A DNA stretch of 64,000 nt, taken from NCBI GenBank assembly GCA_018780805.1, contig JADMJD010000112.1, forward strand, positions 62,001 through 126,000. The letters run 5' to 3'. The position numbers and the translations under genes are program-made. This document shows positions 8,651-62,730 of this stretch, piece by piece (positions within the stretch are counted from its first letter, which is position 1; each line of letters starts with the position of its first letter). The DNA comes from Rubrivivax sp. (GTDB taxonomy: Bacteria; Pseudomonadota; Gammaproteobacteria; Burkholderiales; Burkholderiaceae_C). Under the pieces are notes generated by a model, which worked only from the letters and a program-made list of their open reading frames with translations, ran no database searches and was not told the DNA's origin.

Positions 8651-8677
8651 TGGACGACCCTGTGTGCTGCGCACGCC

Positions 8678-8714
8678 GGGATGAGCGCTTGGGAACGGCC
8701 CAGCGCGCTCATGC
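8678..8714. repeat. Dispersed palindromic repeat, copy 1
   Basis: This 37-base element contains ATGAGCGCTTGGG and CCCAGCGCGCTCAT as near-perfect inverted arms. A second copy in opposite orientation, with two differences, lies at 56762-56798. In both cases the element begins at the stop codon of the gene it follows. It looks like a REP/BIME-like element or a transcript 3' stabiliser. Confidence 0.75.
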
Positions 8715-10654: not shown

Positions 10655-10664
10655 GGCCAGGTTC

Positions 10665-11924: not shown

Positions 11925-11937
11925 GGCCGACGTCCCT

Positions 11938-12903: not shown

Positions 12904-12937
12904 GCTGTTTGTCTCCTGTCGTTGTTGTCGTGTCGGC

Positions 12938-29133: not shown

Positions 29134-29151
29134 GCGGCAGGGCCGGGCCCC

Positions 29152-30510
29152 TCAGGGCCCCTTCTTCAGCAGCGTGACCCCACCGCGTGTGCCACCGTCG
29201 GTGACCATGATGGTCGAGAAGATCAGGCCGTCAGCGTCCTTGCCGACGAAGTTGCCACCAAAGCCCGAGGCGCCCACCAGGAAGCCGCTGCAGCCGGCGC
29301 AGCTGCCGCTGCTGTAGTTGCCCAGGAAGCCACCCGACAAGGCCTTGTCGCTGTAGCTGGCGCTGCCGTTCAGACCGCTGAAGACCAGGCCCTCCAGCGT
29401 GAAACCCAGGTTCTGCACCAGCACACCGCGGTTCAGGAAGTCCACCGCCACCTGGCCGCTCAAGCCCGTGAGGTTGCCGCCGCCCGCCGGGTTGAACACC
29501 GCGGTGCCGCTGCCCGGCATCTGGCGCGTGGCGTCGCCGGCAATCCAGTCCAGCGTGCTCAGCGCCGGCGCGGTGAACTCGGTGCCACCCACCGCCACCG
29601 TGGCCGTTGCACCGGTCACGGACAACCACTGCCCCCAGTAGACCGACGAACCGTCGGCCAGCGCCGTGCTGCTCACCGGCGCCTGCGTGGCGCCCCGGCG
29701 CACCGCGAAGAAGTTGCCGCTGCTGCCGACGGAATCGAGCGCGCCGCTGTTGACGCTGTACTCGCCGCCCTTCCATTCACCGCTGAGCGCCAGGCCCACG
29801 GTCGGCTGGCCCGCCACGCTGTTGGCAAAGGCCAGGCCGGCGGCCAGGTTGGGCACGTACTGCACGCCCGAGCCGGCGGCGTTGGTGCTGAACTCGTTGC
29901 TGCGGTCGCCGCTCAGCGCCGCGGCGTCGCTGGCCGGGGCCAGCACCACGGTCTGGCCGGCCTGGATGGCGGCCACGGCGCGCGCGGCGTCCAGCGTGTA
30001 GCCGGCCTTGCCGCGGTCCACCGCCTGGCCGGCGGCGGCAGCCACCACGGCGCGGATCTGCACCGTGCTGCCCAGCGTCACCTCGGGCATGGCCTGTTGT
30101 TGTTCCACCGCCAGCGCAAAACCGGGGTCGAGCTCGGCGGCACGCTGGAACTGCGCACGCGCCTCGGCAAAACGGCCCTGGTCCTTCAGGTCCAGGCCGT
30201 TGGAGTAGGCGCGGAAGGCCTCGACGTTGGTGGTCTGGAAACGTTCGATGCGGGCGCGCACATCGGCCGGCAGGCTGTCCAACGGGATGCCGGCGGCACG
30301 CAGGATGCCGAAGGTCAGCGCCTTCTGGGCGCGAAACAGCGCCGCCAGCTCGCCGCTTTCGCGTGTGATGCCCAGGCTGCTGGAGCTGCGGCTGTCGATC
30401 ACCGCGCCTTCCAGCACAAAACTCTGGCCGGCGGTCTGCGCGCCGGCTGAAGCGGTCAGCACGGTTTGCACGGCCAGCGCGGCCGGCAGGATCAGGCTCC
30501 GGTGTTTCAT
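29152..30510 (-). CDS. Secreted TPR protein with C-terminal TbpB-like beta-barrel domain
   Basis: 452 residues from ATG 30510, which overlaps the preceding stop by one base. A signal peptide covers 1-25 (MKHRSLILPAALAVQTVL, ending ASAGAQ, no lipobox). A CsgG/TPR-linked region lies at about 75-190 with a short TPR (YSNGLDLKDQGRFAEARAQF). The C-terminal roughly 230 residues are Gly/Ser-rich with VAVDFLNRGVLVQNLGFTL and Gly-Phe strands (GGFLGNYSSG, GGNFVGKDADGLIFS), the pattern of transferrin-binding-protein B-like eight-strand barrels. Such barrels are typical cargo of SLAM translocons, and a SLAM-like gene lies two genes upstream. The paired Cys (SCAGCSG) may form a disulfide. Confidence 0.65.
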   Translation of the reverse strand: MKHRSLILPAALAVQTVLTASAGAQTAGQSFVLEGAVIDSRSSSSLGITRESGELAALFRAQKALTFGILRAAGIPLDSLPADVRARIERFQTTNVEAFRAYSNGLDLKDQGRFAEARAQFQRAAELDPGFALAVEQQQAMPEVTLGSTVQIRAVVAAAAGQAVDRGKAGYTLDAARAVAAIQAGQTVVLAPASDAAALSGDRSNEFSTNAAGSGVQYVPNLAAGLAFANSVAGQPTVGLALSGEWKGGEYSVNSGALDSVGSSGNFFAVRRGATQAPVSSTALADGSSVYWGQWLSVTGATATVAVGGTEFTAPALSTLDWIAGDATRQMPGSGTAVFNPAGGGNLTGLSGQVAVDFLNRGVLVQNLGFTLEGLVFSGLNGSASYSDKALSGGFLGNYSSGSCAGCSGFLVGASGFGGNFVGKDADGLIFSTIMVTDGGTRGGVTLLKKGP

Positions 30511-31676
30511 CACTGCACCTCGAAGTTGCCGACGATGACCTTCTCGGCCCGCATCAGCCGGCCCGAGCGCACGGCGCCAGCGGGGTCGGCCAGGCCGGCG
30601 TCGCCGAGTTTCATCTCGTCCAGCAGCAGCTGCACCTTCTCGCGCTCCAGCACCTTCAGGCCGGGCACCTTGGACAGGTCGGCGATGATCATCGCGGCCA
30701 GGCCCTTGGCCATCGCCCGGAAGCTCTCGTCGCCGCGGTTCACGAAGGCCTGCACCGCGATGCTGCCGGGCTCGGGGGCGGCACCCACCAGTTCGCGCTC
30801 GCGCGAGACGGCGGTCTGCACCTCCTGCTGCAGCTGGGCCGAGCTGAGCAGGGTCAGCGTCTTGGGCAGCTCGCGCGCGGCGGCGCCTTCAGGATCCTGG
30901 CGTGCGTAGAGCTGCAGCTGCTGCAGCGCGGTGGCGTTGTCGCCCTGACGCAGCGCGATCAGGCCCAGGTAGTAGGCCACCAGAGGCTCCCCGGGCGCTG
31001 CGGCTTCCACCCGCTGCAGCGCGGCGCGGGCCGCGGGGTCGTCACCGCTGCCGAAGGCTTCGATGCCGGCTTTCAGCACCGCTGCGACCTCGCTGCGTGC
31101 GCGCAGCGCAGGCTCGCGCCGGGGTTCGTCCACCGCCAGCAGCGGCGGCTGCGCCAGCACCTCGGGCCGCACCGCCGGGCCGTCCCAGCGGAAGTGGCGG
31201 TTGCGCAGCACCGAACGGCCGCCGCGATATTCCAGCACCACCTCGCCCTGGGCCACGCTGCCGTACAGGCCGGGCGCCAGACGGCAATCCTCTTCGCACC
31301 ACTGCAGCTTGACGTAGCCGGTGGCACGCAACGAGCGGTCGCGCAGGTCCACCCACCAGTCGGGCGAGGCCGTGGCCAGGCGCAGCCCGCCGGCCTGCAG
31401 CGCCACCCGCTGCACACCTGCCTGCGGCAGGGCCACCTGGCTGGACGCGCCCAGCATCAGCAGCGTGCCGTCGGCAAAACGCAGCTGCGCCGCGCCGTCG
31501 GCACCGGTGCGCAGCGCGCCAGTCATCAGCTCGGTGCCGGCCACGGCCGGGCGGCCGTCGAGCTGCACCTCGCCTTGCACCTGCACCAGGCGCGCCTGCG
31601 CGGCGGCGGGGCCCGCACTCAGGGCCAGCACCAGCGGCAGCACGAACGGGATGGAGCTCAGGGCCAGGGTTCGCAT
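30510..31676 (-). CDS. FecR-like / TPR / CsgG-like periplasmic protein
   Basis: 388 residues from ATG 31676 (MRTLALSSIPFVLPLVLAL), with a signal peptide to about residue 26. A FecR-type beta domain spans about 28-150 (VQGEVQLDGRPAVAGTELMTG, AQLRFADGTLLMLGASSQV), with a Cys pair WCEEDC. A TPR-like helical part spans about 185-275 (YYLGLIALRQGDNATALQQL). The C-terminal CsgG/FlgO-like domain starts at about 300 (VQAFVNRGDESFRAMAKGL, MIIADLSKVPGLKVLEREK, LLLDEMKLGDAG). FecR domains often bind glycans or act in surface anchoring. It is co-directional with both neighbours and 8 bases after the SLAM-like stop. Confidence 0.7.
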   Translation of the reverse strand: MRTLALSSIPFVLPLVLALSAGPAAAQARLVQVQGEVQLDGRPAVAGTELMTGALRTGADGAAQLRFADGTLLMLGASSQVALPQAGVQRVALQAGGLRLATASPDWWVDLRDRSLRATGYVKLQWCEEDCRLAPGLYGSVAQGEVVLEYRGGRSVLRNRHFRWDGPAVRPEVLAQPPLLAVDEPRREPALRARSEVAAVLKAGIEAFGSGDDPAARAALQRVEAAAPGEPLVAYYLGLIALRQGDNATALQQLQLYARQDPEGAAARELPKTLTLLSSAQLQQEVQTAVSRERELVGAAPEPGSIAVQAFVNRGDESFRAMAKGLAAMIIADLSKVPGLKVLEREKVQLLLDEMKLGDAGLADPAGAVRSGRLMRAEKVIVGNFEVQ

Positions 31677-31684
31677 CGCGGGCC

Positions 31685-33043
31685 TCAATACTGGTAGCGG
31701 GTCTTGACGGCGAGCGAGTGGCGGTCGCTGTCGTACAGATCCTGGTTGGATCGGTTCCAGAACGACACCCACTCGGCACGCACCGACCACTTGGGGTCGA
31801 TGGCGTAACTGGCCACCAGGTCGAGGTTGAGCGCGGTGTCTTCGCGGGTGCTGCCAAAGCCGATGTCGGTGCCCCGGAACTTCTGGCCGTACAGCGTGAG
31901 CCCGCCCGACAGGCGCAGCCGCTCCTGCGGCGAAAAACTGCCAAAGGCGCGCACCAGCGGCACATCGCGGCTCAGGTCGTCGCGAAGGCGGCTGTTGCTC
32001 TCCACCGTCCAGCTGAAGCGCAGGCCCAGCGACGGCGCACCGGCCAGCTCGGAGAAGTTCTGCGTCAGGCTGCCGCCCAGCGTGACGGCCCGCGCATCAC
32101 GCGCCTGCTCGGCGCTGTTGTGGCGGTACTCGAAATACTGCGCAAAGGCCGTGAACGTGCGCTGGGGCCCGAGGTTGAAGCTGGACTCGCCGCCCACCGA
32201 CAAGGTGTCGCGGTAGCGCTGCCCGGCCACGCGCAACTCGCCCACACCCAGCGTGAAGCGGTACAGCGCTTCGTTGCGCAGCTGCGTGAAGCCGGCGTTG
32301 AAGCCGATGTTGCTGAGGTTGTAGTCCTTCTGCTGGGCGTTTTCGCGGTGGTCGATGTCGGCCCCGGCAAAGACCGAGAACTGCGGGCTCACGCGCAGCG
32401 TCTGCTGGCCACCGGCGGCCAGCTGCACAAAACCGTCGGCCACGCCTTGGGACGGTGAACCGGCCAGGCTGATGGTGCCGAAGACCAGCTGAAGCTCGTC
32501 GAGGTCGGTGCCGCCGTTGACGTTGCTGTCATGGCCGACGCCGGCCTCGACGTACAACCGCGACGCCGTCTGCCGGCGGCTGCTGTCGCGCAGCTGCATC
32601 GCGCTCAGGAAACCTTCGATGTTGCGGCGCACGCCGGCCGGCGGGTTGTAGCGCAACACGAACTCGAACTCCGAACGGGCCCGCGCAAATTCACCGACCA
32701 GAAAATAACCGCGCGCCAGCTCCAGCCGCGCGCGGTCGTTCGCCGGCACAGCGGCCAGGTGGCGCTCCAGCGCCAGCAGGCCTTCGGCGACACGCCCGGA
32801 CGACACCGCGGCCACGCCGTAGAGGAAGTCGAAGTGCACGCTGCCAATCAGCTCCGGGTGCGCCTGGCCCAAGCGCCAGGCCTGCTCGAACTGGCTGCTC
32901 TCGACCAGGCGGCGCAGGTCGTCCAGCGGTGCGGCCACCGCCGCCGGGCCGGTGAGCAGGGCGGCCAGCACCGCGGCCAGGCCCAGGGACCGCCAACCGG
33001 ACATCGAGCAGGACATCGGGCGTGACATCGGGCGGCTTTTCAT
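31685..33043 (-). CDS. SLAM-like TPR plus outer-membrane beta-barrel protein (DUF560-type)
   Basis: 452 residues. The signal peptide is about 1-38 (hydrophobic LGLAAVLAALLTGPAAVAA). Tetratricopeptide repeats span about 40-150 (LLALERHLAAVPANDRARLELARGYF, ARSEFEFVLRYNPPAG). The rest alternates polar and aromatic residues in a strand pattern with a terminal ...VKTRYQY, a classical outer-membrane insertion signal. The length and architecture resemble surface lipoprotein assembly modulators (Slam, type XI secretion; DUF560), normally 450-500 residues. The start overlaps the tpsA stop by four bases. It would export partner proteins with TbpB-like barrels. Confidence 0.7.
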   Translation of the reverse strand: MKSRPMSRPMSCSMSGWRSLGLAAVLAALLTGPAAVAAPLDDLRRLVESSQFEQAWRLGQAHPELIGSVHFDFLYGVAAVSSGRVAEGLLALERHLAAVPANDRARLELARGYFLVGEFARARSEFEFVLRYNPPAGVRRNIEGFLSAMQLRDSSRRQTASRLYVEAGVGHDSNVNGGTDLDELQLVFGTISLAGSPSQGVADGFVQLAAGGQQTLRVSPQFSVFAGADIDHRENAQQKDYNLSNIGFNAGFTQLRNEALYRFTLGVGELRVAGQRYRDTLSVGGESSFNLGPQRTFTAFAQYFEYRHNSAEQARDARAVTLGGSLTQNFSELAGAPSLGLRFSWTVESNSRLRDDLSRDVPLVRAFGSFSPQERLRLSGGLTLYGQKFRGTDIGFGSTREDTALNLDLVASYAIDPKWSVRAEWVSFWNRSNQDLYDSDRHSLAVKTRYQY

Positions 33044-36000
33044 CGCGAGGGCTGGGGCAGCGCGCCGCCGTCGAGCAGGCGTTGCAGTTGGGGGTCGATG
33101 GACAACATCGGCAGGCGCAGCAGCGTGGCCAGGGTGATGCGGCGGGTTTCGCCGCGCAGCACGGCGGCCAGCACCTCGGCGGGGTCGTCGTTGCCGGTGG
33201 CACGCGGGTCCGGGCCGGTGGGTGCCACCAGCGCTGCGGCGCGCACCGCCGCTGCGCTGCGGCGCAGGGCCTGGGCGGCAGCAGCCACCTGTTCGGGTGG
33301 CACGCTGTCGAGCACAAACTCCTGCCCACCGCCGCCGGTGGTGCCACCGTCTTCGTCGTCCACCTGCGGCGGACGCGGCAACACGATGAGCCGGCCGCTC
33401 TCGTAGCGGATGTCGTAGTTGGCCGCCAGCCCGCTGCCAAATTGCGCCGCGGCGGGCGGGGCCAGCGTGTACAGCCCGACGCCGGCCTCGGCGCCGGGTG
33501 CCGCCGGCTGCTGCACCGACAGCAGCGTGTCGCCGTTGACCAGGCCACCTTCAGCGCTGGAAAAACCCCAGGGCACGGGGTTGGCATCGCCCGCGTAACG
33601 CAGCACGGTCTGGCTGGCGATGGTGAGCGGGCGCGGCGTGACGGTGAGCCGGCCGTCCACGTAGGTGAGCGCGTAGTTGGCCGGGTCGAAACCTGCGCCC
33701 TGGGCATCACGCGCCGTGATGGCGTAGGTGCCCACGTTGTCGGCCGCCGCCAGGCCGCCAGGGCTGAGCGTGACGCCGTCGATGCGTTCGCCATCGGCCA
33801 AGCTGCCCGCCAGCGCGAAGCCCAGCGCCGGCACCGGCACGGTGCTGCCGTAGACCTTGCTGGCGTCGCCCGCCGTGACCGTGACCGGACGTGGCGTGAT
33901 GTCGGCCGCGAGCGTGAGTGCATCGCCGGCCAGCACGTAGTTCGCGGCATCGGCACCGCTCAGGCCCAGGCCGCTGACGTTGACCACCTTGGCGGTGCCG
34001 GCGTTCTTGTCGGCAAACTGCGCCGCCGTCTGGCCGATGCCGAGCTGGTCGTCGGCCACGCGGTCGTCGGTGTAGGCCACGGCCGCGGCCACGCTGCCGT
34101 CGTAGACCTTGGCCTGCGCCGTGCCCACCACAGTGAGCAGGCGCGGGGCGATGTCCACCTGCAGGCCCGAGACCTGCACCGTGTAGTTGCTGGCGTCGGT
34201 GCCGGCGAAAGCCACGCCGTCGAGCGCCACGGCCTTGGCGGTGCCGGCGGCCTTGTCGGCCATGCTGCCGGTGACGCCGCTGGCCAGCAGCTGCAGGTCG
34301 TCACCCGCCAACACACCGGCGATGCTGCCGGCGGCGGTGTTGATGGCCACGGTGCGCGTGCCGTCGTAGACGCGGTTCACGGCCAGCAGGCCGCTCAAGG
34401 CCACCGGCAGCGGGGCGATGTCCACCGTCAAGCCGACCACCCCACCCAGCAGGTAGTTGCCGGCGTCGGCGCCGCTCAGGCCCAGGCCGTCCACCACCAC
34501 GGCCTTGGCGAGGCCGGCGTTTTTGTCGGCCAGCGTGCCACTGGTGGGCGCGCTGTCGCCCTGGGCCAGTTGCACGTCGTCGTTGCCCAGCACGCCTTGC
34601 AGGCCACCCTGGCCCTGGGCGCTGCCGGTGAGCTGCACGTTGCGCGTGCCGTCGTAGGTGCGCGCCACGGCGGCCAGCCCGCTCAGGCCCGTGATGTCCA
34701 GCGGGCGCGGCGTGATGCTGGCCATGGTGCTGGTTTCGGTGGTGGCCAGGCGGTAGTTGCCGGCGTCGGCACCGTCCAGCGCGATGCCCGCCACCAGCAC
34801 GGGTTTGTCGGCACCGGCGTTTTTGCCGCTGCTGAAGACGGCGCTCTGCGAGAGGCTGAGCGCATCGCCCGCCACCAGGCCGTCGATCTGGCCCGTCACC
34901 TGGGCCGCCGTGCCACCGTCGTAGACCTTGTCCACGCCGGCGTACACCGCCGCCACGGTCTTGGGCAGGATGCTGGCGGTGGTGGTGCCGGTAGGGTTGT
35001 CGAGCGCGTAGTTGCCGGCATCGGCACCGATCAGCAGCGTTGAGTTCAGCGTGATGGCCAGGCCGTTGCCGACGTTTTTGCCGGCGTCGAACAGACCGCT
35101 GGCCGCCAGGCTCAGCGCGTCGCCCGTGACGATGCCGCTGGCCGCGCCGGTGGCGTTGGCCGTGGCCGTGCCGTCGTAGACCTTGTCGACGCCGGTCCAG
35201 ACCGCTGTGAGCATGCGCGGCGTGATGTCGACGGTGACACCGTCCACGCCCACGATGCGGTAGTTGTCCGCGTCGGCGCCGCTCAGGCCCAGGCCGCTGA
35301 TGACCACGGCCTTGCCGGTGCCCACGCGTTTGTCGGCCATCGTGCCGACGGTCTGGCCCGTGTCCGGCACGTTGACCGTGACGTCGTCCCCCGCGATCAG
35401 GTCGCCCGCGCGGGGCGCCACGCCAGCCGCGGCGATGAGGTCCACCGCGACCGCGGTCGTGCCGTCATACACCCGGCTCACCGCCGTGGCGCTGAGGCCA
35501 TCGATGACGATCTCCCGCGGCGTGATGCTGCCGGTGGTGTTGGTGGCGGCGATGTCGCTGCGGTAGTTGCCGGCGTCGGCACCGCCGAGTGCGATGTCGG
35601 TGACGCTGATGGCCTTGTTGTCGCCCACGTTCTTGCCACCGCTGAAGACCGCGCTCTGGCCCAGCGTGACCGCGTCACCGCCGATCAGGCCGCCCAGCGT
35701 GCCCTGCACCGGCGCTGCCGTGCTGCCGTCGTAGGCGCGACTGCCGCCGGTGTAGGCCACCTGCAGCGTGCGCGGCGTGATGTTGGCCGTGGCGTTGCCG
35801 GTGCTGCTGTCCAGCCCGTAGTTGCCGGCGTCTGCGCCGGCCAGCAGCAGCGACTGCAGCTCGATGGCCAGACCACTGCCAACGTTTTTGCCGGCCGTGA
35901 ACACACCGCTGGCGCTGAGGCTCAGCGCGTCGCCCGCCACGATGCCGGTGGCGCTGCCGGTGGCGCTGGCCGTGGCCGTGCCGTCGTAGACCTTGTCGAC

Positions 36001-42000: not shown

Positions 42001-44673
42001 AAACTCGCCCACCAGGCCGCCGGCCGAACCACCGCTGGTGTCGCTGAGCGTGACCGCGCCACTGGCGCTGCTGGCGTTGATGTCGCTGTTGTCGGCCGTG
42101 CCCACCAGGCCGCCGGCGCGGTACTGACCGCGCACCTCGCCCTCGGCCTGCCCGCGCGTGATCGTCGACTGGGAGGCGTCGCCCACCAACCCGCCCGCTT
42201 GGCCATTGCGGCTTTCCACCGGACCGGTGGCACGCACGTCGGTCATGGGGCTGTTGCTGGCATCGCCCACCAGGCCACCGCTGCTGTATTCACCGGAAAC
42301 AGCGCCCTGGGCCAGCGCCGACTGCAGCGGCGTGTAGTAGGCATAACCCACCAGGCCCCCCGCATAACCCTGGCCGACGACGTCGCCGTCGGCGCGGGCG
42401 TTGCTCACGCTGCCGGAGCTGGCATAACCCACCAGCCCGCCGGTGTAGCTGCCGTCGCCCGCCACCTGGCCGCTGGCGGTCACGTTGTTTAACGCGACCG
42501 AACCCAACCGGCCCGCCAAGCCGCCCGTGTAGGCGCCACCGCCCACGCTGCCGGTGGCCAGCACGTTGTCGATGCTGAGGTTGTTGGCCTCGCCGAAGGC
42601 GCCGCCGACGTCGGCCCCGGCACTGCCGTTGGCCACCCGGCGCGCTGTCACGTCGCCGCTGGCCTGGCTGTTGCGAAAGCCGGTGCTGGCGTAGTCCAGA
42701 CGCCCGGCCAGCCCACCGACGGCGCCGTACAAGGACGCGGAACTCACGGTTCCGCTGGCCTGCAGCCCGTCGAAACCCGCCGCGTACTGCCACAGGCCGG
42801 TCAGCCCGCCCACGTAGACGGTGTTGTTGGTCAGGGCCGAGTCCACCGCAACACTGCTGCTCAGCTGGCGCAGGCCGCCCAGGTAGATGCCGTTGTTGTA
42901 GCCGTAGCCATAACCCACCACCGCGCCCACATAGGTGCCGCCCGTGACACTGCCGCCATCGAGCGTGAGGTGGGACACCGTGGTGTTGCGCACCTGGCCA
43001 AACAGACCGACGTAACTTTCTGCCGGGCGGTTGATGTGCAGGCCGGTGATGCTGTGGCCCAGGCCCTCGAAGTCGCCGCTGAACGCGCCGCTGTTGTTGC
43101 CCACCGGCGCAAAGCCTGCGCCGTCGTTCCAGTCCACGGTGGCGCTGGCGTCGATGGAGGCCCCCAGCGCGTAGCTCAGCGCCCGCGTGGTGGTGTTCAG
43201 GCCCATGCCTTGCAGCTCGTCCAGCGTGTTGATCACGACGAAGGCCCTGCCGTTGATCGACAGGCTGGGGCTGCTGCCCGGCAGCGAGACGGTCACGCCG
43301 TCCGCCAGCGTGTAACGCCCACTGCCAGCGCTGATGGTCAGGCCGGCGGCGTTGCCGGTGGCCGTGAGGTTGGCGTTGATCTCGACATCGGCGATGGCCG
43401 AGAGTGTCAGCGTGGTGCTGGCCGTCCAGCTCACCGGGGCTTCGATGCGGATGTCGCCCGCCTCGCTGCCGCTGCTGGCTGTCAGCAGCGTGACGTTGCC
43501 CGATTGCAGGTTGGTGGCCAGCGTGCTGGCGCCGATGCCCGATTCCGTCTGCGTGGCGCCCCCGGCACTGACGACGAAGTCCGTCGGGTCGATCAGCCAC
43601 TGGCCGTGCCGGCCATCGGCCGCCAGCGTGGACACGCGCGTGTTGTCGTCGATGCGCACCCGGGCAGCCGAGGTCTCGACCTGGCCACCGCTGCCGCCCG
43701 CGTCCAGCGCCTGCGCGCTGATGCTGCCGGCCAGGTCCAGGCTGCCGCTGGCCATGCCGCCACGCACGACGATGCGCCCGGCTGAGGCCCCGCCGCGGCC
43801 GTCGGCCTGCAACTGGCCGCTGTTGCTGACGGCGTCGCCGGTGATGTGGATCTCACCAGCGCGTTCGACGATGCTGTTGGCGCGCACCAGACCGCTGTTG
43901 TTGACCAGTGAGGCCGCCAGGCCCTGTGCCGACTCGGCCGACAGCCGCACACTGCCGCCGTCGGCGGCGATGCGGCCACTGTTGAGCACGCTGCCGGGGT
44001 CACCCGGCACCATCACGGCCGACAGCAGGCCGCTGTCGCTCAGGCTGACGGTGGCGCTGCGGCCCGAGGCCAGCACCACGCTGCCCGCCGGCACCGTGAT
44101 CTCGCCTTCGTTGCCCACGTCGGCACCGAACAGCGCCACGTAGCCCCCGGCGGTGATGCTGCCCTGGTTGATCACGCTGCCACCGGCACCGCTGAACACC
44201 AACTGGCCCGCGGCAAAGTGGTCCTGCGACAGGTCGAGTGTGGACGCCACCAGGCTGCCCACGTCCACCTGCGCACCCGGCGCAAACAGGATGCCGTTTG
44301 GATTGCTCAGGAAGACCTGGCCGTTGGACACCAGGCGGCCGAAGATGCTGCTGGCCTCGGGGCCGATGACGCGGTTCAGCGCGATCGACGACGTGCCGGG
44401 CTGGCGGAACTCCACCGTCGCGTCGCGGCCGATGTTGAAGCTCTGCCAGTCCAGGCCCAGGCGCGGCGTGAGCTGCTGGATCAGCAGCAGGTTGCCCTGT
44501 TGCGTGAGCTGGCCTGCGCCCACCTTGACCTGCCCGCCTTGCGGCAGGGCGTTCGGGGCCGGCGCGGTCTGTGCAAAGGCAAACGCGCCGACAAACGGCG
44601 CCAGCAGCCAGGCCAGCAGGCGCGACACGGTGCGCACACGGCGCGGATGGTGGGTGACACGCGGGGTGGCCAT
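33040..44673 (-). CDS. Giant two-partner-secretion (TpsA) adhesin with GLUG and YDG repeats
   Basis: 3,877 residues in one uninterrupted frame. A long signal sequence (1-35) is followed by a filamentous-hemagglutinin TPS domain (about 38-300) containing NPNGILF at 124-130. About residues 570-1165 form GLUG-type repeats (GGLVGYA-like motifs). About 1245-3560 hold 26 YDG modules (VYDGSTAAQV-like, each about 80-100 residues, usually ending with D/ITPRxL). Two MBG-like modules close the chain (KVYGSTVPVPALGFA, LRYAGDANPVPWGF), then a short Pro/Arg-rich tail. TpsA proteins leave the cell through a TpsB barrel and form surface filaments for attachment. The gene lies 23 bases after tpsB. A huge complementary open frame on the plus strand is a coding shadow. 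Confidence 0.92.
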   Translation of the reverse strand: MATPRVTHHPRRVRTVSRLLAWLLAPFVGAFAFAQTAPAPNALPQGGQVKVGAGQLTQQGNLLLIQQLTPRLGLDWQSFNIGRDATVEFRQPGTSSIALNRVIGPEASSIFGRLVSNGQVFLSNPNGILFAPGAQVDVGSLVASTLDLSQDHFAAGQLVFSGAGGSVINQGSITAGGYVALFGADVGNEGEITVPAGSVVLASGRSATVSLSDSGLLSAVMVPGDPGSVLNSGRIAADGGSVRLSAESAQGLAASLVNNSGLVRANSIVERAGEIHITGDAVSNSGQLQADGRGGASAGRIVVRGGMASGSLDLAGSISAQALDAGGSGGQVETSAARVRIDDNTRVSTLAADGRHGQWLIDPTDFVVSAGGATQTESGIGASTLATNLQSGNVTLLTASSGSEAGDIRIEAPVSWTASTTLTLSAIADVEINANLTATGNAAGLTISAGSGRYTLADGVTVSLPGSSPSLSINGRAFVVINTLDELQGMGLNTTTRALSYALGASIDASATVDWNDGAGFAPVGNNSGAFSGDFEGLGHSITGLHINRPAESYVGLFGQVRNTTVSHLTLDGGSVTGGTYVGAVVGYGYGYNNGIYLGGLRQLSSSVAVDSALTNNTVYVGGLTGLWQYAAGFDGLQASGTVSSASLYGAVGGLAGRLDYASTGFRNSQASGDVTARRVANGSAGADVGGAFGEANNLSIDNVLATGSVGGGAYTGGLAGRLGSVALNNVTASGQVAGDGSYTGGLVGYASSGSVSNARADGDVVGQGYAGGLVGYAYYTPLQSALAQGAVSGEYSSGGLVGDASNSPMTDVRATGPVESRNGQAGGLVGDASQSTITRGQAEGEVRGQYRAGGLVGTADNSDINASSASGAVTLSDTSGGSAGGLVGEFGYGAITASSASGDVLVPQASYAGGLVGYAYGYSSASNGITDSTASGQVQAYSNAGGLVGYWYATGGGTLSNSHATGAVTAQSVAGGLVGNLYTYSYRGDGQPDFVINGVSASGAVQTQNIGGGLLGRWEGNNARLEDSHASGAVTAGSDSSYPNFQIGGLVGRLDSYTYYYSDTDPDAGLRIDRSFASGSVRATAVTGTYGYVYAGGLIGQVYATDYGYPGMQRAEVRDSYATGRVEVDVPDAYTAVGGLIGYLEGMDLTRTYSSGAVVATGALYSEVGGLVAQASNSTVTSSYWDTDTSGQPFSAAGTGLSTAQMRQAASFDGWDVSDAHDTGTTWRIYEGHTAPLLRSFLRPLTLTQGDASKAYDGSNSLAGTGTLDTIGDPITDLDRIFVAGAGPDAGSYGFNAAALYSSQLGYDLDVLHSGQTSTLDITPRSITLTGAVADKVYDGGTAASFVATPLLAGLVAGESLTLNFSGASASFDDRHVGTGKAVTVSGFQVADGANGRAANYSVGGTAEAAVTPKPITAGNFQAQDRVYDGGTAVVVGFTDAGGLSGVVGSDVVALNAGSASGTMADKHVGSAKPVAVGGVSLTGADAGNYTLAGIDAVTVNISPRPLDLLGLQAPDKVYNASTAVTVNSSAITLSGLLPGDLVLPDNDNLRGQMADKHVGTAKPVTLSGLALVGPDAANYTAQAAGLAVNVLPRDVYVYATTAYVNGQNVSYKVYDGSNEARATLVDYGYYLIGGDAVAITSTSTTFADKNVAYNGSGQVINKTITVGGIALTGDDASNYLLRTLTATTSGRIDPRPLAVSGVEAVDRVYDGTLNVVVNVAGAAVDLSNRVGSDDVAVQIPVEGAVVGTMLNKAVGTGKAVTVPGLTLTGTEALNYTLNAANGVTVDISPKDLTVVYTGVDRVYDRSTYATVTGASADIIGGDQVFFGASNCYGCSYFTGDGAKNVGTDKPVIVQSYYNYLYGSDANNYNLLNPGERAATADITARPITPSVSGISKVYDGTAVASVTLNTGASGIVSGDSVSLGTQNAVFTAGKNVGNGKAIAVSDITLSGTDAFNYSLAATTANTSANITAKLVNVTGIAAVDRVYDGTTIVAVQISNPTVEGLVALDDVQAVLPVDGISSGTMADRHVGTNKPVAVTGLSLSGSDAGNYTLGSSGGTVNITPKPISVAYTGVDKVYNRSDVATVTGVATGIVQGVGDSVGFTQSALFSGTDGRNVGTDKPIAVSNITLTGAQRDNYVLEATSASTSADITPKPITVAYIGIPRVYNGGDDLSAVVQPATNDLEPGDSVGFNQTARYASDGNAGSNKTINVTDISLAGVLAGNYLLGNTTATTSASITPRLLGVAGMAAVNRVYDGSTTVQVNVTGAAVDLTGVLGSDEVTVSLPPEGITTGSMVDKHVGQNKPVSVTGLLLGGSDAANYALTGADALTVDISTLGINVAFTGIDKEYDGSTTAQVLGTAIGFNTGDSLGVSANAVFTGAGARNVGDEKAVAVSNALLTGADRFNYVLLNRDGSTTASITPRSVTPVYTGGTRAYDGGVAAPVNVVLSRLVGGDAVSVAQSAVFTGDDAKNVGSAKPVAVSDVQLAGADAGNYVLSTTSGSTTASITPRLIVVEGVSGLLATPRVYDGTTLVQVTVPEGITGTPREGDVLAGEQVLVQVPAPGTTTGTMADKHAGTAKPVQVAGLGLSGTDAGNYAIASATGVTVDISRLGISAFYNGLDKVYDGSTAAQVQVRLDDALAGDVLTGSATGVFTAGKNVGQNLAVAVSGGALAGADARNYTLLNPTGATGANITPRSVTAVYTGGSKVYDGSSTAPVTGSVNGLVSGDSVALDQTAVFSGGKNAGDNKAIAVSAITLAGTDGGNYQLNNTTAVASGNVTSRPVVVEGLSISAEDRVYDGSTQVVVQVQATEGAGVRAGDLIDGDQVTVNLPGTGQTTGTMTDKNAGLGKTLTLTELSLSGTDAINYRIVGADGLTVDISPRTLSATWTGVDKVYDGTATASATGSATGIVAGDALSLSASGVFTAGKNVGSGLAIELQSLLLAGADAGNYGLDSSTGNATANITPRTLQVAYTGGSRAYDGSTAAPVQGTLGGLIGGDAVTLGQSAVFSGGKNVGDNKAISVTDIALGGADAGNYRSDIAATNTTGSITPREIVIDGLSATAVSRVYDGTTAVAVDLIAAAGVAPRAGDLIAGDDVTVNVPDTGQTVGTMADKRVGTGKAVVISGLGLSGADADNYRIVGVDGVTVDITPRMLTAVWTGVDKVYDGTATANATGAASGIVTGDALSLAASGLFDAGKNVGNGLAITLNSTLLIGADAGNYALDNPTGTTTASILPKTVAAVYAGVDKVYDGGTAAQVTGQIDGLVAGDALSLSQSAVFSSGKNAGADKPVLVAGIALDGADAGNYRLATTETSTMASITPRPLDITGLSGLAAVARTYDGTRNVQLTGSAQGQGGLQGVLGNDDVQLAQGDSAPTSGTLADKNAGLAKAVVVDGLGLSGADAGNYLLGGVVGLTVDIAPLPVALSGLLAVNRVYDGTRTVAINTAAGSIAGVLAGDDLQLLASGVTGSMADKAAGTAKAVALDGVAFAGTDASNYTVQVSGLQVDIAPRLLTVVGTAQAKVYDGSVAAAVAYTDDRVADDQLGIGQTAAQFADKNAGTAKVVNVSGLGLSGADAANYVLAGDALTLAADITPRPVTVTAGDASKVYGSTVPVPALGFALAGSLADGERIDGVTLSPGGLAAADNVGTYAITARDAQGAGFDPANYALTYVDGRLTVTPRPLTIASQTVLRYAGDANPVPWGFSSAEGGLVNGDTLLSVQQPAAPGAEAGVGLYTLAPPAAAQFGSGLAANYDIRYESGRLIVLPRPPQVDDEDGGTTGGGGQEFVLDSVPPEQVAAAAQALRRSAAAVRAAALVAPTGPDPRATGNDDPAEVLAAVLRGETRRITLATLLRLPMLSIDPQLQRLLDGGALPQPSR
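33880..40960. repeat. YDG-module DNA repeat array inside the TpsA gene
   Basis: About 26 degenerate units of roughly 240-300 bases, recognisable by the recurring complement of GTCTACGACGG and by D-I-T-P-R / Y-N or N-Y blocks every 80-100 residues. Some neighbouring units are near-identical, so unequal recombination could change the copy number. The first unit is near 40915 and the last near 34090. Boundaries are approximate. Confidence 0.85.
41180..42960. repeat. GLUG-module repeat region inside the TpsA gene
   Basis: About 20 short units encode G-G-L-V/A-G-Y/F-A motifs, spaced 25-45 residues apart, alternating with variable T-x-S-x-A-S-G-x-V strands. This is the classical GLUG pattern found in surface-attached and IgA-protease-like adhesins. 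It forms the first repeat block after the TPS domain. Confidence 0.75.
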
Positions 44674-44696
44674 GGTGGTGCTCCGTCCCGATGCGC

Positions 44697-46436
44697 TCAG
44701 GGCGCGGCAAACAGTTGCAGGTACAGGCGCGGCTTGGGGTCGCCGCCTTCGGCCTGTGGTTCATGCGGACCGCGCCAGGCCACCGAGGCCGCGACGCCGA
44801 ACTGGCCATCGCTCCACTGCAGCCCGAAGCCGCTGCCGCGCAGCGTCACGCGCTGGGCGGCACCCGGCACGTAACTGCCGGCCTGCAACGCGATGGGGCG
44901 CCGCAGCAGCAGGCCCTCGGCCTGGTCGTGGAACAGGCTCAGCGTGGCCTGGCCGCCCAGGTGTTCGACGGCGTAACGCAGCTCCAGCGACCACAGCCGG
45001 CCCTGGTCCACCGAGGCTTCACCGGGCGCGTAGGCGCGCACGCCGGCCGGCCCGGCGAGGCCCAGTTTTTCGCTGCTGTCCAGGTTGCCGCCGCTGTACT
45101 GGCCCAGCCAGCGGCCGTACAGGCTGACGGGCCCGAACAGCGCCTGCTGGCGCGCCAACTGCAGCGTGGCCTTGCGGTAGACCCGGGCGGTGTTCAAGGC
45201 CAGCGCCGCAGAATCACCCGGGTCGGTGGCCGTGGCCGGCTTCAGCGGGTCCACGAAGCTCAGGTCACCCTGGGTCAGCGTGACGCTGGCGGCCGTGGCG
45301 CCGCCGCCGAACAGGCTGTCGCGCAGATCGCCGCTGGCACTGAGCGCCAGCGTGGTGTTGCGCTTGCGCTGGCCCTGGCCTTCGATCAGTTCCAGCTTTT
45401 CGTCGTTCAGGCGCTGGTGTTCGGCCGCGGCGCGCAGCGTCAGGTTGGCCTGCGTGCCTCGCAGCAGCGGGTAACTGGCGTTCAGGCCCAGGCTGTTGGC
45501 CACGCCCGTGGCGCCCAGGCTCGCAAACTCGCCACCCAGAAAGTACGTCAGCCGCGACAGGCTGGCGCCGAGCTTGAAGCCGTCGCCGCCCACCGGCAGC
45601 TCGCTGCTGATGCTGCCGCTGACCAGGCCACCCCCGTTGGACACCCGCGCCTGCAGCTGCGTGCTGTCGCCATAACCCGAGATGTTGCGCAGCTGCAGGC
45701 CCAGGCCGGCGCGGAACTCGCCGGTGCTGCGGCTGCCGTGGTTGTCGGCCTCCACGCGCACGGCCAGCGGCTCGTCTTCGGCCACGCTGACCACCACGTC
45801 GGCCGTGCCGGTGCTGGCACCGGGCGTGAAGGCGGCGCGGGCCACGACGCCGGGCATGTCGTTGAGCAGCAGCAGCTTGCGTTCCACGTCGGCCTGCAGC
45901 ACGGGCTGGGCCTGGGTGAGCGCATCGGTGTGGGCCTGCACCACCTCGTCCCGCAGCCGCACCTCTTGCGCGGTGACCACCTGCACGGCGTCGACCTTGC
46001 CCTCCAGCACCGCGATCTCGACCATGCCGCCGTCCACACGCTGCGCCGGCAGGTAGGCGTAGCTGAGCACATGGCCGCCTGCCTGGTACAGCCGCGTCAA
46101 CGCGCCCGCGGCTTCGTTCAGGCCTTTCAGGTCCAGCGTGCGGCCGACCCAGGGCGCCACCAAGGCGTCCAGCTGCGCGGCCGGGTAGCTGCGCGCGCCG
46201 GTGATGCGGAAGGCCTTGACTTGCACCGTGGCGCCTTCAGGCAGTTCCACCGTGGGCCGGGCCGGTGCGTCCAGCAGCTTGGGCGCGGCGGTGGGCGGCT
46301 GCAGCGGGCGCTGGGTCTGGCGCGATTGATCCAGCAGCCGGCCGGCATCGGGCGTGGTCTGGGCCAGCGCACTGACGGACAACACCGACAGCACCGCCAG
46401 CGCGGCGGCAGAGGGGGAATGCGGAGGCATCGGCAT
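44697..46436 (-). CDS. TpsB outer-membrane transporter (ShlB/FhaC/HecB type)
   Basis: About 579 residues from ATG 46436; ATG 46430 is two codons inside. Signal peptide 1-26. An N-terminal POTRA domain starts at about 65 (VKAFRITGARSYPAAQLDALV), followed by a second POTRA-like region (VEIAVLEGKVDAVQVVTAQ). The barrel occupies about 230-579. The conserved loop-6 motif VRGY is here VRAY (GVRAYAPGEASVDQG), and FHDQAEG stands for the F-x-D-x-G motif. It translocates the adjacent TpsA, which starts 23 bases downstream. It lies 10 bases after the CsgG-like gene. Confidence 0.9.
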   Translation of the reverse strand: MPMPPHSPSAAALAVLSVLSVSALAQTTPDAGRLLDQSRQTQRPLQPPTAAPKLLDAPARPTVELPEGATVQVKAFRITGARSYPAAQLDALVAPWVGRTLDLKGLNEAAGALTRLYQAGGHVLSYAYLPAQRVDGGMVEIAVLEGKVDAVQVVTAQEVRLRDEVVQAHTDALTQAQPVLQADVERKLLLLNDMPGVVARAAFTPGASTGTADVVVSVAEDEPLAVRVEADNHGSRSTGEFRAGLGLQLRNISGYGDSTQLQARVSNGGGLVSGSISSELPVGGDGFKLGASLSRLTYFLGGEFASLGATGVANSLGLNASYPLLRGTQANLTLRAAAEHQRLNDEKLELIEGQGQRKRNTTLALSASGDLRDSLFGGGATAASVTLTQGDLSFVDPLKPATATDPGDSAALALNTARVYRKATLQLARQQALFGPVSLYGRWLGQYSGGNLDSSEKLGLAGPAGVRAYAPGEASVDQGRLWSLELRYAVEHLGGQATLSLFHDQAEGLLLRRPIALQAGSYVPGAAQRVTLRGSGFGLQWSDGQFGVAASVAWRGPHEPQAEGGDPKPRLYLQLFAAP

Positions 46437-46446
46437 GGTGGCAGTG

Positions 46447-47148
46447 TCAGCGACGGGCCATTTTCTGGAGCACGGCGCCCAGCAGGCGCTCGGCCGGCTC
46501 GAAACCCGGCCGCGCCTGCAGCAACTGTTGCAATGCGGCCACGGCTTCGTCCAGCTGGCCGGCATCGGCCAGGGCCAGGGCGCGGTCGTGGGCCTGCCAG
46601 ACCGCGGCCGGGTGGTCGGCCAGCGCAGCACCACGGCCACCCAGGGCCTGGGCCACCCGCGCGGCCAGGGCCGGCTGCTGCTGCATCACCTCGGCCAACG
46701 GCGCGGTCTGTTCTTCGGAGAACAGCACGCGCGACGAGCCGGTGTCAACCACCCGCACGTTGACCTGCACCGCGTCACCGACGACAAAAAAGCCGCCAAA
46801 GACCATGCGCTCGGCCCCCGCGATGCGGCCCAGCCGCAGTCGCGTGTTTTCGTCGGCCAGGCTGCCGCTGGCCAGCTTCTGCTCGGCCAGCACTTCCTGC
46901 AGGCGCAACCGGTCCACCACGGTCTGGCCGGGGGTTTGCAGCAGGGCCGAAACCAGGCTCTCCGACAGCGTGCGCTGCAGCCAGTCGGCCTGGTTGCGTG
47001 GCACGGCCGACAGCGCGGCGACGGTCTGGTTGTCGAAATCCCACACCACCACGGCAGGCAGGCGGGGAGCGGTCTGCGCGGCAGCGGCCTGCAGCGCCAC
47101 GGCCGCCCCGGCGGCGAGCAGGCACAGCGCGCGCCGGGTGGTGTTCAT
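46447..47148 (-). CDS. CsgG/FlgO-like periplasmic protein with short TPR tail
   Basis: 233 residues with signal peptide 1-25 (MNTTRRALCLLAAGAAVAL). The CsgG-like core spans about 30-160: VVVWDFDNQTVAAL, LSESLVSALLQTPGQTVVDR, LQEVLAEQKLASGSLAD, then GAERMVFGGFFVVGD and VNVRVVDTGSSRVLF. The C-terminus (AHDRALALADAGQLDEAVAAL) resembles a TPR pair. No lipobox Cys is present, unlike true CsgG, so it is probably not a curli pore. Its start overlaps the caspase gene stop by four bases. Confidence 0.75.
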   Translation of the reverse strand: MNTTRRALCLLAAGAAVALQAAAAQTAPRLPAVVVWDFDNQTVAALSAVPRNQADWLQRTLSESLVSALLQTPGQTVVDRLRLQEVLAEQKLASGSLADENTRLRLGRIAGAERMVFGGFFVVGDAVQVNVRVVDTGSSRVLFSEEQTAPLAEVMQQQPALAARVAQALGGRGAALADHPAAVWQAHDRALALADAGQLDEAVAALQQLLQARPGFEPAERLLGAVLQKMARR

Positions 47149-49361
47149 TCGCTGCGCGCGACGATGCGCTGGTTTTTCTCGATCGCGCCGCTCAGCTCGG
47201 CGGCGCTGGCGTAGGCCAGGCCGTCGTCCACCTCGGTCACGGTCAGGCGCGCAATGCGGTTTTCCTTGTAGCCCAGCACCCGGCCGTTCAGCTCGATGGG
47301 CTCGCCACGGGTCAGCACGTTGAAGCTCTGGCCCGCCTTGACACCGTGTTTTTTGCCGAGGTTGATGATCACGCGGGTGCCATCGAGTGCCGCCACCCGC
47401 CCTTTCAGCGGGTACTTCTCGGCCACGGCGCGCGCGATCTGCTGCGCCATCGCCGCGGCCAGCCGGGCCGGGTCGGCCGGGCTGGGGGTGGTCTCGGTGC
47501 GCACCAGGGCCAGCTGCGTGGTTTCGGTGTCGATGGCGCGCAGCGCGGCGGCGAGCTGGTTGCCCTGGGTGTTGAGCACCCCCGACACCATCAGCCGCGC
47601 CGCCAGAATGCGGCCCAGGCGGATCTGCGCGTCCTGGTCGGCCAGCTGCGACGAACCCAGCTTGATCTCGGCCATCAGCTTGTCCAGCAGTCGGCGCTCC
47701 ACCAGGGTGTAGCCGCGCGCCTGCAGCTCGCCGATCAGTGCCTCTTGCAGCAGGCTCTCGAAGCCGATGCGGCCGGTCAGCGATTCCAGCGTGCGGTCCT
47801 GGAAGGGCAGCACGGTGATGGCCAGCACCGGCGAGGTCCAGTCGTCGGCACCGGCAGCCGGTTTGGCGGCCGGCTGCGCCATCCGCGCCGCCAGCTCGCG
47901 CACGCTGTCGTCGATGAATTTCTGCTTCGCGCCGTCCTGCTCGGCGGCCAGGTTCTCGCGCACCTGGCGCAACAGCGCGGCGGTCATCGGGTCCTGCGGG
48001 TCCAGCGCCTGGGCCCGCTCGAGCACCGCCTTGGCCTGGCTGCCCTGGCCGGTCTGGTTGAGGGCCACGGCCAGATTGGACAAGGCCTCCACCGACTGGC
48101 GGTCTTCTTTCGCGGCCTTCTGGTAGGTCTGCGCCGCGGCCTTCGGGTCGCCGGCGCGCTGCAGGTTGCCCACGGCCACCAGCGCCTTGGACTTCTGCCA
48201 GGAAAAATCGGCCTGCGTCTGCGGGGCCGCGGCCTGCTGCAGCGCCGCGGCACTGTCGGCCGCCTGGCCGCTGGCGGCCAGGGCCCGGCCGCGGATCAGG
48301 TAGGCCGCGCTGCGCGCCGGTGAACCGGCGATGATGGCGTTGGCCTCGGCCAGCGCGCCCTGCGCATTGCCCCGCGACAGCAGGATCTCGGCCAGGCCCT
48401 CGCGGCCCATCAGCGCCACCTCGGGGTGGGTGCTGACGCTGGCCAGGGCACGGAACATCTTGTCCGCCTCGTCCAGCTGGCCCTTGCGCAGCAGCTCGTA
48501 GGCCTGCTCGGTGCGCAGGATGTGTTCGACGCTGGGCGGTGGCGGCAGCAGCGCCGCGGCCGCCTTGGCACTGCCCGGCGTGGGCGGGAAGAAGTAGAAA
48601 TCACCTTCCAGCGAGGTGTTTTCCCAGGGCACCTGCTGGCCACGTGAATCCAGCCGCACACCCAGCCGCGTGCGCTTGAAGACCTCTTCCACCGGCAGGC
48701 CCGGGCGCTCCAGGTTGGCCAGCAGGTGCTGGGTGTAGAGGCCGTTGCTGCCCTTGCCGTCGCTGGCCACGCTGCCGGGCGCGGTGGCAAAGGCCAGCAG
48801 CGAGCCGCTGGGCGCGTCCATCTGCGAGAGGCCGCCGCTGCCCGCGGTGGAACGCGAGGCCTTGGCAAACGGGTTGTCGCGGCAGGCGTCCAGGATGACG
48901 ACGTTGATGCGGTTCTTGGCCGCGTCCATCTTGTCCAGCACCTGCTGCGCGTCGATGGCCTTGAACGGCACCTCGTCTTCGCGCTGCACGGTGGCGCCCA
49001 CGGGCAGCAGGAAGTTGCGGCCCTTGACCTGCACACCGTGGCCGGCGAAGTAGAACAGCCCGACCGAATCGCCCTTCAATCGGTCGCCGAAAGCGCGGAT
49101 GGCGGCGTCCATCTGGCGCTGGTCGGCGTCGAGCTTGAGGTCGACCGTGAAACCGGCGCGCGTGAGCACCTTGGCCATGGCCGCGGCGTCGTTGGCCGGG
49201 TTGCTGAGCGGCACCTGGGCGTATTTGCTGTTGCCGATGACCAGCGCATGGCGCGCCTCGGCGGCCTGCGCCACCTGGGCAGCCGCGGCCAGCAGCAGGC
49301 CACCCACCAGCAGGGCCAGTGAGCGCAAGGACATCGATGGGGAGATGGTGAGGAGCTGCAT
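47145..49361 (-). CDS. Caspase-family (peptidase C14) protein fused to TPR, CsgG-like and FlgT-like domains
   Basis: 738 residues from ATG 49361, chosen for GAGG eight bases upstream; ATG 49334 is an alternative. Signal peptide about 10-33. A caspase domain spans about 36-275: catalytic His108 in YFAGHGVQ and Cys160 in VVILDACRDNPF, so the dyad is intact. TPR-like helices lie at about 300-490. A CsgG-like domain spans about 545-670 (LAITVLPFQDRTLESLTG, LVERRLLDKLMAEIKLGSS). A C-terminal beta domain follows (VAALDGTRVIINLGKKHGVK), as in FlgT. It is the first gene of the seven-gene unit. Confidence 0.85.
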   Translation of the reverse strand: MQLLTISPSMSLRSLALLVGGLLLAAAAQVAQAAEARHALVIGNSKYAQVPLSNPANDAAAMAKVLTRAGFTVDLKLDADQRQMDAAIRAFGDRLKGDSVGLFYFAGHGVQVKGRNFLLPVGATVQREDEVPFKAIDAQQVLDKMDAAKNRINVVILDACRDNPFAKASRSTAGSGGLSQMDAPSGSLLAFATAPGSVASDGKGSNGLYTQHLLANLERPGLPVEEVFKRTRLGVRLDSRGQQVPWENTSLEGDFYFFPPTPGSAKAAAALLPPPPSVEHILRTEQAYELLRKGQLDEADKMFRALASVSTHPEVALMGREGLAEILLSRGNAQGALAEANAIIAGSPARSAAYLIRGRALAASGQAADSAAALQQAAAPQTQADFSWQKSKALVAVGNLQRAGDPKAAAQTYQKAAKEDRQSVEALSNLAVALNQTGQGSQAKAVLERAQALDPQDPMTAALLRQVRENLAAEQDGAKQKFIDDSVRELAARMAQPAAKPAAGADDWTSPVLAITVLPFQDRTLESLTGRIGFESLLQEALIGELQARGYTLVERRLLDKLMAEIKLGSSQLADQDAQIRLGRILAARLMVSGVLNTQGNQLAAALRAIDTETTQLALVRTETTPSPADPARLAAAMAQQIARAVAEKYPLKGRVAALDGTRVIINLGKKHGVKAGQSFNVLTRGEPIELNGRVLGYKENRIARLTVTEVDDGLAYASAAELSGAIEKNQRIVARSE

Positions 49362-49466: not shown

Positions 49467-50084
49467 TCAGGTCGTGACGGACTTGGCAAACCGCCAGCGC
49501 AGCATCAGGTTGTTGGCCGGCATGTCGGCCCGGCCAACACGTTGCAGGCCGGCCGCGGCCGCCACTTCGTCCACCGCCGCCAGCCGGCGCAGGCCCCAGG
49601 CCGGGTGGCGCTGGCGCAGGTCGGCATCAAAGGCCTGGTTGCCGGGCGCCAGCGGCTCGCCGTCCACGATGTAGGGCCCGTACATCACCAGCTGGCCCTG
49701 CGGTGCCAGCACCGAGGCCGCGCCGCGCATCAACGCGGGCGTGACGGCCCAGGGCGCGATGTGCACGAGGTTGGCGCAGAACACGGCGTCCCAGCCGCCC
49801 GGGCGTGTGGGCCAGGGGCCGTTCAGCACGTCCAGGTGCTGCGGCACGGCCACGTTGGCCAGGCCGGCGCACCGCAAGGCCAACGCCGGCAGGGCCGCCG
49901 CTTCGGCCTCGGTGGGCTGCCAGGTCCAGTCCGGGCGTACAGCGGCCAGGTGGGCGGCGTGCTGGCCGGTGCCGCTGGCCAGCTCCAGCACCGCTGCGCC
50001 GCGTGGCAGCCACTGCTGCAGCATGTCACCGATGGGGCCGCGGTTGCGGTCGGCGGCCGGGCTGAAGGGGAGATCAGGGTTCAC
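49467..50084 (-). CDS. DUF938 family SAM-dependent methyltransferase-like protein
   Basis: 205 residues from GTG 50084 (VNPDLPFSPAADRNRGPI). The SAM-binding motif I is VLELASGTGQHAAHLA, and the acidic residue follows as TEAEAAALP. The middle reads VFCANLVHIAPWAV, and DUF938 signatures include YGPYIVDGEP and PGNQAFDADL. The substrate is unknown. Its start overlaps the preceding gene on the same strand by 11 bases. Confidence 0.88.
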   Translation of the reverse strand: MNPDLPFSPAADRNRGPIGDMLQQWLPRGAAVLELASGTGQHAAHLAAVRPDWTWQPTEAEAAALPALALRCAGLANVAVPQHLDVLNGPWPTRPGGWDAVFCANLVHIAPWAVTPALMRGAASVLAPQGQLVMYGPYIVDGEPLAPGNQAFDADLRQRHPAWGLRRLAAVDEVAAAAGLQRVGRADMPANNLMLRWRFAKSVTT

Positions 50085-62559: not shown

Positions 62560-62730
62560 GAGGACTTGTAGCTGTTCTTTGCTTCTGAGTGTTGACGGTC
62601 GGTGCCTCGCGTGCGGTAGTAGCCAGGCTCAACCGAGCATCGTACCAAGCGGCCTGATGCGACCCGGACGCGGCACCATGCGACCACGCGGTGCCGGGAC
62701 GTTCTCCAAGGCTGAACTTGCGAGCCGGCC

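Follow-up and report, generated by a model that had tools for sequence, protein, structure and literature searches.

We examined a 64,000-nucleotide window (the whole stretch of DNA analysed; positions 62,001 to 126,000 of contig JADMJD010000112.1, assembly GCA_018780805.1, Rubrivivax sp.), in which a seven-gene locus at window positions 29152-49361 brings together proteins of two outer-membrane export routes. In transcription order the genes encode a caspase-domain protein (CASP), a CsgG-like protein (CSGG2), the transporter and exoprotein of a two-partner secretion (TPS) pair (TPSB and TPSA), a Slam-like outer-membrane protein (SLAM), a FecR-domain protein (FECR), and a protein with a cargo-type barrel fold (CARGO). 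All seven open reading frames (ORFs) are intact and lie on the minus strand, with junctions of -4, +16, +23, -4, +8 and -1 bases, in agreement with an earlier interpretation from sequence alone (the sequence-only reading), which had described seven same-strand genes with overlaps or gaps of at most about 23 bases. The starts of the TPSB, FECR, and CASP genes are our choice, that of TPSB being uncertain. Signal-peptide-like starts were recognized by eye in six of the seven proteins, the leader of TPSA being longer, and none of the seven showed a lipobox within its first 45 residues. A search of PHROGs gave no useful match. Coordinates are collected in Table 1.

Table 1. Features of the seven-gene locus in the window, followed by features of related loci elsewhere.
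Feature	Sequence	Position	Strand	Description
CASP	window	47145..49361	-	caspase, TPRs, CsgG/FlgO-like, FlgT_C; start maybe 49331
CSGG2	window	46447..47148	-	CsgG-like with TPR, 233 amino acids
TPSB	window	44697..46430	-	ShlB/FhaC-type two-partner transporter, POTRA_2
TPSA	window	33040..44673	-	exoprotein of 3877 amino acids: TPS domain, 7 GLUG and 26 YDG stretches
TPSA conserved C-terminal tail	window	33049..33180	-	RITLxxLxRLPLxSxDPxLRRL
SLAM-like outer-membrane protein	window	31685..33043	-	N-terminal TPR, predicted 14-strand barrel
FECR	window	30510..31676	-	FecR domain, TPR, putative first half of CsgG-like domain; end ...VGNFEVQ
CARGO	window	29152..30510	-	signal-peptide-like start, putative second half of CsgG-like domain, TPR, C-terminal cargo-fold domain (~206-452)
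FecR protein with three or four tandem cargo-like domains	L064	10477-14400
FecR protein with three or four tandem cargo-like domains	L072	7630-10644
FecR protein with three or four tandem cargo-like domains	L074	6264-9875
FecR protein with three or four tandem cargo-like domains	L033	16254-19901
Trypsin-TPR and Ser/Thr kinase-PEGA genes	L118	3407-6018		inside split-T11SS locus
Trypsin-TPR and Ser/Thr kinase-PEGA genes	L122	12138-14990		inside split-T11SS locus

A scan of genome contigs with the CARGO alignment recovered 14 loci, and all of those named to genus or species belonged to Rubrivivax. The order TPSA-SLAM-FECR-CARGO was retained in all 14, the three smaller proteins having 51-78% identity. 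Full-length CARGO was present in 14 of the 81 genomes of the genus, and a 15th genome (G574) held a lone fragment of the CARGO C-terminus; the C-terminal part of CASP was found in 16 of the 81, among them all 14 genomes with CARGO. Eight genomes, including the window's own, had all seven genes in order on one contig (G000, G022, G031, G032, G570, G583, G603, and G608). In another, G566, some 21 kb separated CASP from CARGO, which share a strand, CSGG2 and TPSB not being read there, while in the remaining five CARGO genomes CASP and CARGO were on different contigs. A differing gene order was not seen in any genome of the genus. Conservation of the seven genes together, on which the sequence-only reading had been staked beforehand, held in all 14 loci for the four genes and in the eight genomes for all seven.

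With respect to the two-partner pair, TPSB matched ShlB (4.1e-21) and POTRA_2 (3.9e-16) in Pfam, and TPSA matched the TPS domain (6.5e-34) and adhes_NPXG (1.4e-23). An exoprotein with an N-terminal TPS domain therefore adjoins a transporter with POTRA and a ShlB barrel, the arrangement of type Vb secretion. The pair shares the TPS domain, the adhes_NPXG N-terminal domain, the ShlB barrel, and POTRA with FhaB/FhaC-type systems, but differs from these in being embedded among five further genes and in a tail on TPSA that scores strongly only in genomes with this locus. Using a tail model built from the Rubrivivax loci themselves, strong matches occurred in exactly those 14 of the 81 genus genomes that hold full-length CARGO, and two other genomes of the genus gave only E ~0.002.

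The second export route was recognized largely from relatives and predicted structures. The SLAM protein of the window had no SlipAM match in Pfam at E up to 1, and SLAM and CARGO gave TPR or weak barrel-type matches only, all below cut-offs; among 17 aligned relatives of SLAM, however, nine matched SlipAM (best 8.1e-16) and four matched TPR_Slam. The model of SLAM comprises an N-terminal TPR region and a predicted 14-strand barrel, as in outer-membrane proteins of the type XI secretion system (T11SS), and no solved Slam structure was among the structure matches listed. For CARGO, residues 221-452 of the AlphaFold2 model were confident (block means of 73-93 for the predicted local distance difference test, pLDDT), and the 50 Foldseek and 50 VIA matches listed for this C-terminal domain were all hemophilins, TbpB/LbpB, fHbp, and NHBA, which we take to be Slam/T11SS cargo. 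CARGO lies near the Slam-like gene, with one gene between them, in all 14 loci, and SLAM probably exports it to the surface. These results uphold two labels of the sequence-only reading, a SLAM-like translocon and a TbpB-like barrel in the last gene, along with its pairing of type Vb and Slam/T11SS-like genes in one conserved, co-directional locus. Like known T11SS (Slam/NilB/DUF560), the locus has an exporter of TPR and 14-strand barrel with a cargo-fold protein one gene away, but here a FecR gene separates exporter from cargo, the cargo N-terminus consists of half a CsgG-like domain and TPR without a lipobox, and a TPS pair sits in the same locus.

The comparison of FECR with CARGO suggests that a single CsgG-like domain is divided into two complementary halves, one on each of these separately exported products. 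FECR has a FecR domain (4.6e-6, 27.4 bits versus a Pfam cut-off of 24) and a Pfam CsgG match at positions 12-96 of 210, and CARGO has, after its leader, a stretch resembling the remainder of a CsgG-TPR domain. If CARGO is taken to begin at the nearest start codon, 11 of the 14 loci have an overlap of 1-4 bases between the two genes and three have a 1-base gap. Most of FECR residues 321-388 were invariant across 15 sequences, and the CARGO half of the domain was strongly conserved as well. The description of this gene as FecR-TPR-CsgG in the sequence-only reading has to be amended for CsgG: FECR has only the first half of a CsgG-like domain, and CARGO begins with the other half. Further, in six one-piece ORFs the sequence corresponding to the FECR end runs straight into that of the CARGO start. 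Two of these are from other families (L117, E 5e-19 and 1.7e-11; L109, 3e-17 and 7e-14), and four (L156-L159; 5e-15 to 1e-14 for the FECR part, 4e-16 to 8e-12 for the CARGO part) come from the genus genomes G022, G014, G007, and G570, which also hold the split pair. The latter ORFs are CsgG-TPR paralogues whose starts look lipobox-like by eye, and they account for the four weak second matches of the cargo search in the genus (E 1e-12 to 1e-14). We infer that the two halves join in the periplasm.

Ten further pairs with the same split were found outside the genus, in six genomes that represent five families. In nine of these the first ORF stops no more than 4 residues from a common point, and in L135 it runs 17 residues beyond it. 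Each of the ten second proteins has a signal-peptide-like start by eye. Since the domain is intact in one-piece homologues and the split recurs in other families, the split is probably old and kept, rather than an accident of one genome. In five loci (L118, L122, L124, L125, and L135) the pair follows a Slam-like gene and the second protein has 571-923 amino acids by ORF. In the other five (L119, L120, L121, L133, and L134) it is short, with 293-441 amino acids, and no Slam-like gene was in view, L134 being cut by a contig end. A TolC-like OEP, the split pair, and a DUF4347 protein stand in a row at L119 and L121, and next to L133, on the opposite strand, is a Calx-beta/FG-GAP/RTX protein. The former arrangement may represent a type I-like variant related to this system: a FecR-half/CsgG-half pair lies between the OEP and the giant DUF4347 protein, but the second protein is short and the stretch seen has no Slam-like gene. 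In a phylogenetic reconstruction, the five Slam-linked pairs grouped with those of the genus, together with two one-piece rows on long branches, and the five short pairs fell elsewhere; the support (92/94) was below the tree's mark for strong support. The tree was built without the L156-L159 ORFs, and the split may have arisen once or repeatedly. A search of the phylum returned 14 rows, comprising the window, seven split pairs, two one-piece lipoprotein-like ORFs, and four more weakly related proteins, by eye of the adenylate cyclase-TPR or regulator-TPR kind. With the window genome left out, such matches were rare, in nine of 298 genomes of the phylum (1e-6) and two of 368 of the class (1e-10).

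The remaining two proteins have domains of a periplasmic accessory type. CASP matched Peptidase_C14 (4.3e-40) in Pfam, as well as TPR, CsgG/FlgO, and FlgT_C, and GHG and DACR motifs, which we take to be the caspase catalytic His and Cys motifs, occur in the window protein and in eight of nine relatives (DACR alone by pattern in L045). Both catalytic residues thus appear present in the sequence, and the caspase identity proposed in the sequence-only reading stands. CSGG2 matched CsgG, FlgO and, weakly, LpoB, plus TPR. Like the periplasmic CsgG/FlgO/FlgT/LpoB domains, CASP ends in CsgG/FlgO and FlgT_C and CSGG2 has CsgG, FlgO, and weak LpoB matches, but here the domains are fused to caspase and TPR, and no other flagellar domains occur among the seven proteins. 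At L118 and L122 the cargo gene is followed downstream by genes for a trypsin-TPR protein, a PEGA-containing Ser/Thr kinase, a protein of thioredoxin-like-TPR-CsgG-FlgT_C architecture, and CSGG2. The thioredoxin-like protein aligns with CASP from the TPRs onward (2e-127 and 2e-118), and the CSGG2 matches were at 1e-48 and 4e-44. The core common to L118, L122, and Rubrivivax is Slam-like, FECR, CARGO, an X-TPR-CsgG-FlgT_C protein, and CSGG2, in which X is a caspase in Rubrivivax and thioredoxin-like in L118 and L122. The TPS pair was seen solely in the Rubrivivax version; four of the six split-pair genomes of other families do have TpsB relatives, on other contigs. The trypsin-TPR and kinase-PEGA genes hint at control by proteolysis and phosphorylation.

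Across the order, the Slam-like profile matched 89 of 250 genomes at 1e-10, the window's included. We inspected 50 loci, 10 from an earlier search and 40 picked among the stronger profile matches. In 47 of these, a FecR-domain ORF starts at most 500 bases downstream of the Slam-like gene on the same strand, the exceptions being L041, L096, and L084 (in L084, FecR is on the opposite strand); other FecR ORFs numbered five among the 5304 six-frame ORFs in these stretches. In 29 of the 47 loci (18 of 36 with seeds excluded), the FecR protein has at its C-terminus a domain, present once to four times, that hhalign aligned with the CARGO barrel (96.5%, E 1e-9). The other 18 FecR proteins, two or more of them truncated by contig ends, showed no cargo-like domain. 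FecR and barrel are therefore on one protein in at least 29 loci, whereas in Rubrivivax they are on two proteins that share a CsgG-like domain. The FecR protein is apparently an undescribed T11SS partner. No TPS matches were found in these stretches of the order; the Slam-like and FecR genes form a widespread module in their own right, and Rubrivivax has the TPS pair in addition. Separately, we observed in another family two giant, repeat-rich, surface-type ORFs (L035:1907-7066 and 7776-14291; DUF11-like by eye) upstream of a Slam-like/FecR-barrel pair.

Taken as a surface-assembly locus, the seven genes would unite a two-partner adhesin with a T11SS module, the halves of the CsgG-like domain coupling cargo display to TpsA, an interpretation that we judge to be evenly balanced between right and wrong. 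FECR and CARGO would be exported by Sec, after which the joining of the half-domains would link the two proteins, and the Slam-like barrel would move the C-terminal domain of CARGO to the surface. The FecR-cargo pair may then tether, cap, or license the giant TpsA exported by TpsB, with the conserved TpsA tail perhaps being the contact. The part played by the caspase would be, together with the CsgG proteins, that of a periplasmic checkpoint on assembly. We advance more tentatively a farther-reaching version, in which the two-half domain couples a FecR adaptor to T11SS cargo, T11SS and TPS form one caspase-controlled adhesin-display machine, and FecR proteins represent a large, hitherto unrecognized class of T11SS partners.

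Several results weigh against the interpretation as a coupled surface-assembly locus. The N-terminal half of CARGO had pLDDT <50 in the AlphaFold2 model. For the window, the Pfam CsgG score was 33.9 bits alone, 32.4 with the FECR and CARGO halves joined, and 33.0 in a reversed control; elsewhere it went from 35.5 to 36.3 bits upon joining (L060), or the joined sequence reached model position 120 (L063). Joined halves had no meaningful match among PDB sequences (best E 0.47). Using hhalign, the CARGO hairpin gave nothing against CSGG2, and with the TPR included the TPR alone aligned. Moreover, no match to the cargo barrel was obtained for the C-terminal domains of split cargoes from distant relatives, and in genomes G027 and G030 the fetched stretches (L131 and L132) held the caspase-TPR-CsgG gene and CSGG2 without TPS, Slam, or cargo matches. 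Nor was a TPS gene found beside the five split pairs of other families that follow a Slam-like gene, both flanks being visible only at L118 and L122, so TPS is seemingly not needed by the module.

The likeliest of the alternatives, in our estimation somewhat improbable, is that two independent exporters share one operon: TpsA would be free-standing and exported via TpsB, the Slam-like, FecR, and cargo genes would serve a surface protein of their own, and regulation alone would be common to both. The pairing of Slam-like and FecR genes across the order, with no TPS match in those stretches, fits this explanation, as do G464 and G321, in which the split module stands with CASP-like and CSGG2-like genes and no TPS beside it. 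Arguing for the coupled surface-assembly locus instead are the occurrence of cargo and TpsA (by its tail) in identical genomes of the genus and the placement of related split pairs next to other giant surface proteins. We regard as distinctly unlikely that the FecR protein and cargo are unpaired, with CsgG-like fragments that are mere remnants left by gene fission, and that the FecR protein regulates the locus as a periplasmic sensor. Remnants might explain why the half-domain modelled poorly on its own and why the joined-domain tests with Pfam and hhalign gave no clear gain, but the strong conservation of both halves and the recurrence of the split in the ten pairs of other families would be unlikely for them. 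Finally, the sequence-only reading had proposed that the CsgG-like proteins form a periplasmic or membrane scaffold for a surface structure, and Pfam CsgG was indeed matched in three genes (3.1e-5, 2.9e-16, and 4.7e-7). However, the best stretches stop at positions 96-97 of 210 (CSGG2 has a second stretch) and no lipobox was present, so that the complete domain with the pore hairpins (at the positions that we assume for CsgG) of the curli CsgG channel was not recognized, and the FlgO, FlgT_C, and weak LpoB matches are a better fit to periplasmic accessory domains. A curli-type channel or scaffold is not supported and is very improbable.

The locus is flanked on the CARGO side by a convergent radical SAM gene (27223-29133), which ends just beyond it. 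On the other side, a co-directional DUF938 gene (49467-50084) ends 105 bases upstream of CASP, such that the transcript start could be further up. The seven genes may share a single transcript. A scan of 29000-48900 for sigma-70-like promoters found none (0.5 expected), which carries little weight in GC-rich DNA, and terminator-like sites numbered 20 versus 8.8 expected, the majority on the strand opposite to the genes. Elsewhere in the window, 60943-63141 encodes a C5 cytosine methylase and, on the other strand, a Vsr mismatch endonuclease, with GC falling from ~0.70 to 0.59, and is likely an acquired island.

According to the available main text of earlier studies, nine of ten T11SS clusters are mainly from water and soil and have no characterized protein (PMC8406197), while cargo of cluster 1 T11SS has been linked to a C-terminal barrel (PMC12282271). 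FecR, CsgG, and two-partner secretion go unmentioned in the available main text of these two papers, and we found no description of the seven-gene combination in the open-access literature, a coverage that most subscription papers fall outside. If the coupling holds, it would connect two routes of export across the outer membrane that have been regarded as independent, and a FecR partner would be predicted for environmental T11SS-like exporters that have no characterized member. It would also provide a natural case of a domain maintained as two halves that are exported separately, in genomes that encode one-piece paralogues as well.

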